A DNA stretch of 37,078 bases from Patescibacteria group bacterium (GTDB lineage Bacteria > Patescibacteriota > Patescibacteriia > Patescibacteriales > WJLG01): NCBI GenBank assembly GCA_028716485.1, contig JAQUPS010000004.1, positions 1 to 37,078 on the forward strand, given 5' to 3'. Shown here in pieces: positions 28,057 to 30,070 of the stretch. Below the pieces are notes generated by a model. That model was given only the letters and a program-made list of their open reading frames with translations, made no database searches and was not told where the DNA came from. Within the stretch, counting starts at the first letter, position 1. The number at the start of each line of letters is the position of its first letter. The translations under genes were made by a program, and so were the position numbers.

Positions 28057-28103
28057 TTCCCCTCCCCAGGAGGGGTGGTTGCGCCTCGCAACCGGGGTGG
28101 GTT
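28057..28103. repeat. two-hairpin REP-like element (copy A, ftsE-ftsX gap)
   Basis: Hairpin 1 is CCCCTCC (28059-28065)/GGAGGGG (28069-28075). Hairpin 2 is GGTTGCG (28077-28083)/CGCAACC (28087-28093). GGGGTGGG follows. It starts 17 bases after the ftsE stop and ends 14 bases before the ftsX ATG. Confidence 0.85.
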
Positions 28104-29108: not shown

Positions 29109-29744
29109 ATGAAGAGAAAAATTTTGCCGCAAAAATTTTTCACTCGTCCGGCTCTGCAAGTCGCCCGCGATTTGCTGGGGAAGTTTTTGATAAGAGAATT
29201 CCCCTCCCCGGGAGGGGTGGACGCGCCGCGCGGACGGGGTGGGTTAAAACAAATTGCCTTGATGATCACCGAAGTCGAAGCCTATGACGGTCCGCGCGAC
29301 AAAGCCTCGCATGCTTCGCGGGGTGAAACGCGCCGCAACGCGATTATGTTCGGAGCGGGCGGATATTTTTATGTCTATCTTTGCTATGGTATGTACGAAA
29401 TGCTCAATATCGTTACCGGCGCAAAAGATTATCCCGCCGCCATCTTGCTCCGTAGCGCCATAATTAATTTCCCTCTAATAAGAGGGGTGGACTGCCGCCG
29501 CGGCAGGACGGGGTGTGTCACGGATAATATGGTTCTCGACGGTCCGGGCAAGCTCACCCGCTTCTTGAAGATTGATCACAGTTTCAATAAAAAGCCGGCT
29601 GACAAATCCACCAGCCTCTGGTTCGAAGACCGCGGCGTAAAAATTCCGGACAAGATGATAAGGCGCGCGCCCCGCATCGGCGTCGCCTACGCCGGCCCGA
29701 TCTGGTCCAAGAAAAAATACCGTTTCTTTTTGACAAAAACTTAA
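29109..29744 (+). CDS. mpg: 3-methyladenine DNA glycosylase with two in-frame repeat insertions
   Basis: The protein has 211 residues and belongs to the AAG/MPG family of alkyl-base glycosylases. Recognised parts are ARDLLGKFLIR, the catalytic-Glu motif ITEVEAYDGP followed by SHASRGETRRNAIMF, YVYLCYGMYEMLNIVTG, DGPGKLTRFL and PRIGVAYAG. Two segments are foreign to the family: residues about 31-47 (starting FPSPGG) and about 121-138 (starting FPLIRG). Both are translated from copies of the two-hairpin repeat in the same frame, and both lie in loops between conserved strands, so activity may be kept. It probably initiates base-excision repair of 3-methyladenine and hypoxanthine. Confidence 0.9.
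   Translation: MKRKILPQKFFTRPALQVARDLLGKFLIREFPSPGGVDAPRGRGGLKQIALMITEVEAYDGPRDKASHASRGETRRNAIMFGAGGYFYVYLCYGMYEMLNIVTGAKDYPAAILLRSAIINFPLIRGVDCRRGRTGCVTDNMVLDGPGKLTRFLKIDHSFNKKPADKSTSLWFEDRGVKIPDKMIRRAPRIGVAYAGPIWSKKKYRFFLTKT
29199..29245. repeat. two-hairpin REP-like element (copy B, inside mpg)
   Basis: Hairpin 1 is CCCCTCC (29201-29207)/GGAGGGG (29211-29217). Hairpin 2 is CGCG/CGCG around CCG (29222-29232), closed by GGA/GAC with tandem G-A mismatches. GACGGGGTGGGTT ends it. It has no stop in any of the three forward frames. Confidence 0.88.
29468..29518. repeat. two-hairpin REP-like element (copy C, inside mpg)
   Basis: Hairpin 1 is CCCTCT (29471-29476)/AGAGGG (29481-29486) with a different stem and loop. 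Hairpin 2 is CTGCCG/CGGCAG around CCG (29492-29506), closed by GGA/GAC. GGACGGGGTG follows. The second hairpin stem differs from copy B but stays fully paired. Confidence 0.85.
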
Positions 29745-29889: not shown

Positions 29890-29960
29890 TGGGGGATCGT
29901 CCAACGGTAGGACAGCAGCCTTTGGAGCTGTTTATCATGGTTCGAATCCATGTCCCCCAG
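29890..29960 (+). tRNA. tRNA-Gln (TTG)
   Basis: Acceptor TGGGGGA pairs with TCCCCCA, D stem GTCC/GGAC, anticodon stem GCAGC/GCTGT with loop CTTTGGA (anticodon TTG), and T stem CATGG/CCATG with loop TTCGAAT. The discriminator base is G and CCA is not encoded. Its last 16 bases plus one are repeated exactly at 30054-30070. Confidence 0.95.
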
Positions 29961-30070
29961 CTTGTAACATAAAACTGGCCAAAAAGGCCAGTTTTATGTT
30001 ACAATTTGAGAAATGGATGAGAAGTTTATGACCCGCAACGAAGCGGAGGGGTAAATCCATGTCCCCCAGC
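29945..30070. repeat. 17-bp direct repeat of the tRNA-Gln 3' end
   Basis: AATCCATGTCCCCCAGC occurs at 29945-29961 (inside the tRNA) and at 30054-30070, 109 bases apart. Such 3'-end copies are typical footprints of integration at tRNA genes, but no integrase gene is present. Confidence 0.7.
29962..30004 (+). terminator. long perfect hairpin, tRNA terminator
   Basis: A perfect 19-bp stem (29962-29980 with 29986-30004) has an AAAAA loop. The top is AAAACTGGCC/GGCCAGTTTT, so the T-rich right arm can terminate the tRNA transcript. The A/T-rich base makes it readable from both strands. Confidence 0.85.

Follow-up and report, generated by a model that had tools for sequence, protein, structure and literature searches.

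Short dispersed palindromes include the GTAG REPs, which are mobilised by RAYT transposases. Palindromes that enter protein-coding sequences have been described in Rickettsia (Rickettsia palindromic elements, RPE, of 105-146 nt; Ogata et al. 2000, 2002), Wolbachia and Methanocaldococcus, according to PMC2229807 and its references, and have so far passed for a peculiarity of Rickettsia and a small number of further lineages. The CGTC-tagged REPs are reported to have no dedicated transposase and to lie inside genes, many of which serve DNA repair (Di Nocera et al. 2013, PMC3733652). They consist of a single stem-loop with a CGTC tag and a CCA tail, the A/T pairs at the stem base being nearly invariable; the same paper placed CGTC repeats in five phyla, Patescibacteria not among them, and REPs in genes of several phyla. 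Searches of the open PMC literature for palindromic, REP or MITE elements in Patescibacteria, Parcubacteria or CPR returned nothing that apparently described a case like the one below, as judged from titles and abstract openings. As far as checked, no earlier report was found in the phylum, which is short of proof of prior absence.

The 37,078-nt window analysed here, meaning the whole stretch of DNA and not a single feature of it, belongs to the draft assembly of a Patescibacteria genome related to Falkowbacteria (G000; 1,145,562 bases or 1.15 Mb, 28 contigs). It carries copies A, B and C of a two-hairpin repeat designated R1, of which B and C lie in the DNA glycosylase gene mpg (Table 1). 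The main comparison was made with a congener (G001; 1.12 Mb), in which 72 kb of contig C2 is given as N and was treated as a break in the gene calls.

Table 1. Positions of mpg, the R1 copies of the window and further genes that hold repeats.
Feature	Position	Strand	Remarks
mpg, methylpurine-DNA glycosylase (DNA-3-methyladenine), 211 aa	29109-29744	+	PF02245, E=5e-49; TIGR00567 above cut-off; human AAG by sequence and fold
R1 copy A	28057-28103	+	intergenic, ftsE/ftsX, just upstream of ftsX; 71.9 bits; aligned with G001 C5
R1 copy B	29199-29245	+	in mpg, in frame; residues 31-46 (FPSPGGVDAPRGRGGL); beta-hairpin turn; covariance model 76.2 bits
R1 copy C	29468-29518	+	in mpg, in frame; about residues 121-137 (FPLIRGVDCRRGRTGCV); disordered loop; 41.4 bits, E=3e-11
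Hairpin 1, copy B	29201-29217	+	CCCCTCC CCG GGAGGGG; fold and helix 1 covariation
Hairpin 2 region, copy B	29220-29235	+	stem hypervariable across R1; both partners vary in each of the five helix 2 pairs
R1 hosts by profile search, set 1	G000		valS, recQ, dihydrouridine synthase (two copies), metallophosphoesterase, mutM/fpg, dcd-like, comEC-like, DHH phosphoesterase, murD-like, tgt
R1 hosts by profile search, set 2	G000		leuS, lepA, xthA, recG, gatA, TrhP-like peptidase, ligA, TIGR01177-type methyltransferase
Repeats in G001 ORFs	C12:96, C4:70995, C20:16580, C2:42134, C3:12282	+, -, -, -, +	look like uvrD (3), uvrA, uvrC, recG, metG (4 repeats); names by eye from N-termini

An earlier note, made from the letters of the window, had described copies B and C as lying in frame inside mpg, in loops between conserved blocks of the MPG family, and both points were borne out by the ORF with its PF02245 match and by comparison with homologues. 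Copy B reads FPSPGGVDAPRGRGG and copy C reads FPLIRGVDCRRGRTGCV, the insert segments in MPG being FPSPGGVDAPRGRGGLK and LIRGVDCR. The gene encodes an MPG domain with a conserved core, as residues E55, H68, Y90, Y93, N100 and R115, which correspond to catalytic and base-binding residues of human AAG, were invariant in a ten-sequence alignment. Of 34 homologues taken from named genomes, 30 or more are gapped at MPG residues 32-44 and 119-138 (residue 126 alone was aligned more often); for the copy B residues this was so in 33-34 of the 34, and for nearly all copy C residues in 32-34. The MPG of Candidatus Falkowbacteria bacterium Bin_529 (G002), a member of the same family as G000, has neither insert, both of its loops being short (KKVDGKEMALMIT and GVEGFDGPGK), and others in the ten-sequence alignment were short there too; the peptide segments are absent from orthologues. 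The MPG DNA of G002 is found, letter for letter, within the Bin_529 record, which is the ground for relating G000 to Falkowbacteria.

The turn that joins strands 26-32 and 46-60 forms loop 1; loop 2 is flanked by the conserved LLR and DGPGKL segments. In an AlphaFold2 model of MPG, pLDDT exceeded 90 for most of the chain and dropped to about 63-69 in the first insert and about 46 in the second, and the best PDB matches of the model were human AAG complexes (E=1.9e-16). Both inserts are predicted to be low-confidence loops on an intact AAG fold, and, going by the alignments, copies B and C in mpg are insertions.

R1 extends from TTCCCC to GGGTT over about 48-52 nt and comprises two hairpins: hairpin 1 (CCCCTCC/GGAGGGG) is followed by TGG, a hypervariable hairpin 2 and then ACGGGGTGGGTT / ACGGGGTGGG. 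The strict core CCCCTCC-n3-GGAGGGGTGG was found 14 times in G000, against 0 for a reversed control pattern. The earlier note had made its reading depend on recurrence of the consensus elsewhere in the genome, and a covariance model built from 14 copies recovered 58 full-length R1 copies (E-values from 1e-24 to about 0.002), dispersed and with unique flanks. Some copies were nested in hairpin 2 of other copies, and one four-copy tandem array was present. At least 105 copies were found in the congener. Rfam contained no family matching copies A-C.

Hairpin stems had been said to differ between copies and yet to stay paired, which agreed with the alignment of 52 distinct copies: 95.7% of cells pair, and five of the five pairs in helix 2 carry changes on both sides. 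Double-change cells numbered 59, where shuffles gave 17.7 and slid controls 0-6; the covariation score was 0.278, compared with 0.119 for shuffles and no more than 0.085 for slid controls, the alignment being fitted to the model, which favours the R1 structure over the slid controls. Taken singly, copies showed no significant folding advantage over shuffles (z -0.9 to -1.9). Both hairpins are supported, the evidence being covariation rather than single-copy folding. At the site of copy A, the ftsE/ftsX gap on contig C5 of the congener holds two tandem R1 copies versus the one of the window, with a different hairpin 2, so this hairpin varies between orthologous sites. The flank upstream of R1 was 75-98% A/T over about 8 nt versus 53% in the window and returned to baseline by about 15 nt, and the downstream flank was near baseline past the first two bases. 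No clear target-site duplication was seen in G000/G001 alignments.

The parallel with the Rickettsia elements that the earlier note had drawn holds. Like the palindromes of Rickettsia, Wolbachia and Methanocaldococcus, R1 is dispersed, occurs in frame in loops of conserved housekeeping genes and also between genes, and by analogy its translated inserts would be tolerated as they are there. It falls outside the RPE families proper, being about 50 nt long, with two hairpins, and in Patescibacteria; also in contrast to RPE, genes are entered in both orientations and several frames, and unrelated families occupy the same loops. R1 shares with the GTAG REPs the form of a short dispersed palindrome, whereas neither a RAYT gene flanked by repeats nor a terminal GTAG was found: G000 and G001 have no RAYT, and the consensus has no GTAG tag. 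Hairpin 2 read in reverse shows CGTC on one side in 35 of the 58 copies (GAC preceding GGGG), the opposite side having a CCA tail in 44 of 58, and, as with the CGTC REPs, there is no associated transposase (no RAYT; no Y1 transposase in G001). R1 differs from these in the additional conserved hairpin CCCCTCC/GGAGGGG and in a stem base without A/T pairs. Its place in the REP class is one of structural resemblance. The kind of element is already known; what is new is the anatomy of R1, the turnover of several families within the same loops and the failure of any mobiliser to emerge.

A simple gene caller based on codon usage placed 21 of the 58 copies in G000 inside predicted genes, 10 on the same strand as the gene and 11 on the opposite one, in several frames. 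Comparison with G001 revealed two further hosts missed by the caller, O-antigen-ligase-like and thermonuclease-like (names by eye), which brought the total to at least 23 copies in 21 genes. The hosts named by profile search belong to conserved families, with matches above cut-offs or at very low E-values, and in-frame copies in conserved genes with empty orthologous sites were found among them. The xthA gene of the congener shows the site cleanly empty (...AAGAAGTTGGAAAAGACCAAGCCG...) versus ...AAGAAGTTAGAA (54 nt) AAGACCAAACCG... in G000, the insert being exactly 54 nt, or 18 codons, in frame. The LigA segment SPLLRGVPEGRG of G000 falls in a gap of 2owo, the closest solved bacterial LigA. 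In G001, 34 of the at least 105 copies lie inside ORFs of at least 300 nt, in both orientations and several frames.

Frame preservation was assessed on copies defined as "in gene" by the aligned G001 position and not by the G000 ORF, which avoids circularity. Sixteen G000 copies had a G001 site in a gene (gene calls assigned 14 of these, the mpg PF02245 match the other two), and the frame was open through R1 in all 16. Since the core length is generally not a multiple of three and stop-free frames are near what composition gives, an open frame is expected by chance at about 0.27 per copy (one third for length, times about 0.81 stop-free). By this comparison of sequences, the 16 of 16 open frames bear the mark of selection acting on the frame of the host gene; they argue for an insert that is translated and not skipped. 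Copy B has, as the earlier note observed, no stop in any forward frame; across all R1 copies 4.88 of 6 frames were stop-free, versus 4.65 in dinucleotide shuffles, so most of the coding compatibility is explained by base composition. Selection for stop-free elements was rejected as the main explanation, the excess over shuffles being just marginal, and element length as a multiple of three did not apply in genes or outside. With the frame preserved and the modelled fold intact, R1 would be translated and the enzyme would stay active, the insert being presumably nearly neutral for it.

Presence and absence of R1 differ between G000 and G001 in both directions. The two congeners share R1 at some sites, so the copies are not all recent. 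Other repeat families were also encountered. A second repeat in G001, S (CCCTCCTT..AAGGAGGGG...GGGGGTGG), has 23 copies, of which 14 fall within ORFs of at least 300 nt. G000 and G001 carry different repeat families at the same site in valS, in the gene for the metallophosphoesterase and in MPG loop 2. MPG loop 1 in other families of the order carries CCCTCTCC/GGAGAGGG..GGGTGAGG repeats, which are dispersed, with 12 to 14 copies in three genomes (G007, G025 and G040). A further genome (G023) has five copies of this repeat, one of them just upstream of the PF02245 match on the opposite strand; this copy probably encodes the MPG segment TSPQPSPYKGEGG. For the MPG insert of G003 a strict pattern found that one copy alone, so it is not established as a dispersed repeat. 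A third family, TTGTCATCC.GAGC..GATC, counts at least 29 copies in G000 and 37 in G001. Inserts resembling this family were also seen in frame in leuS (L051:624-3230) and murD (L041:401-1870) of G000, the one in leuS containing TTTGTCATCCTGA..GATC..TCAGGATGACAAA. Elsewhere in G000 (C1:1754-2134), four TTGTCATCCCGAGC repeat units stand in tandem at a spacing of about 117 nt.

The RAYT transposase that the earlier note had suggested looking for was absent from G000, where a single IS200-type TnpA, with its own CCGGCGAAGCCGG hairpins, was found. RAYT (NF047646) was likewise absent from G001 and G002. RAYT genes exist in other genomes of the order, and at four RAYT loci of relatives that were examined no R1 was present. 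RAYT was rejected as the mobiliser of R1 on its absence from the R1-rich G000 and G001 and on the lack of R1 at the RAYT loci of relatives. No Y1 transposase was found in G001, the congener with most R1 copies, and the IS200-type TnpA was rejected as mobiliser, being single in G000 and absent from G001. We infer that R1 is moved by a trans-acting or host process.

R1 is very probably a non-autonomous, REP-like mobile element whose gene copies survive in frame in tolerant loops and are translated. It would have amplified in a Falkowbacteria-related genus of Patescibacteria, inserting beside A/T-rich DNA in either orientation; within genes, only frame-keeping insertions in tolerant surface loops would survive, to be translated as 13-20 extra disordered residues, and copies B and C, in loops 1 and 2 of mpg, would be such tolerated insertions. 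This reading is carried by the dispersal of R1, its conserved structure, the emptiness of orthologous sites, the preserved frame and the loop position in a model. The simplest reading of the turnover is that the loops tolerate inserts and have been filled repeatedly. The same loops could instead be hot spots, targeted by an insertion machinery for their hairpins, A/T-rich turns or earlier copies. R1 inserted into hairpin 2 of other copies, the A/T-rich upstream flank and the exchange of families at one site between congeners (valS, the metallophosphoesterase gene and mpg loop 2) would all fit targeting; a mere filter for tolerance accounts for these data equally, and the MPG loops are also regions of variable length in family members free of repeats, which makes hot spots an unlikely account. 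It is rather improbable that the inserts are adaptive, as loops or hairpins that regulate or modify DNA-repair and translation enzymes, with reuse of the MPG loops reflecting selection for an insert. Unrelated palindromic repeats do occupy both MPG loops in other families of the order, and the hosts include several repair genes (mpg, mutM, xthA, ligA, recQ, recG), matching the remark of Di Nocera and colleagues on REPs in repair genes (PMC3733652), yet the inserts occur patchily, families and sequences replace one another at a given site, the peptides depend on frame and strand, and the loops are disordered in the model.

Removal or skipping of R1 by RNA processing or translational bypassing, which would leave the proteins normal, has a precedent in Magnusiomyces mitochondria, a known system in which in-gene hairpins can be bypassed (PMC6649704). 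Bypassing or splicing would need neither frame nor open codons, yet all 16 testable copies keep both, and with several frames and both orientations among the copies no common processing signal is apparent, so that this is highly improbable. As for an artefact of assembly or binning, the G000 record is a draft in 28 contigs, but its 58 copies have distinct flanks, many of them syntenic with the independent G001; against ancestral loops resembling the repeat by chance stand the homologues without the segments. These comparisons already refute both, and the chance of either is practically negligible. Returning to tolerated mobile insertions, we would tentatively go further, though with rather less than even confidence: in Patescibacteria several unrelated palindromic families may keep invading a shared set of tolerant loops in essential enzymes, DNA-repair proteins included, and displacing each other there, with no known transposase in the R1-richest genomes, so that protein loops would be continually rewritten by selfish hairpins moved by an as yet unrecognised mechanism.

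R1 is a pervasive new example of apparently translated protein-coding palindromic elements, and an unusually dense one. In this CPR lineage of reduced genomes, palindromes are found in around 20 conserved enzymes, and a congener supplies empty or differently filled sites. The entry of selfish DNA into proteins can thereby be tested directly, with regard to the loops that tolerate it, the keeping of frame, the cost to the enzyme and the movers of REP-like elements that lack RAYT. For annotators and structure modellers there is a warning that some "lineage-specific loops" of CPR proteins are apparently translated mobile DNA.

Two further features were observed. The valyl-tRNA synthetase encoded by valS of G000 (L016:633-3053) has a large domain insertion: residues 125-298 form a histidine-phosphatase domain (PF00300), which is apparently flanked by tRNA-synt_1 stretches on its two sides. 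In the window, the 3' end of tRNA-Gln(TTG) (29890-29961), AATCCATGTCCCCCAGC at 29945-29961, is repeated exactly at 30054-30070, about 90 nt downstream; this direct repeat is attachment-site-like, and none is expected by chance.
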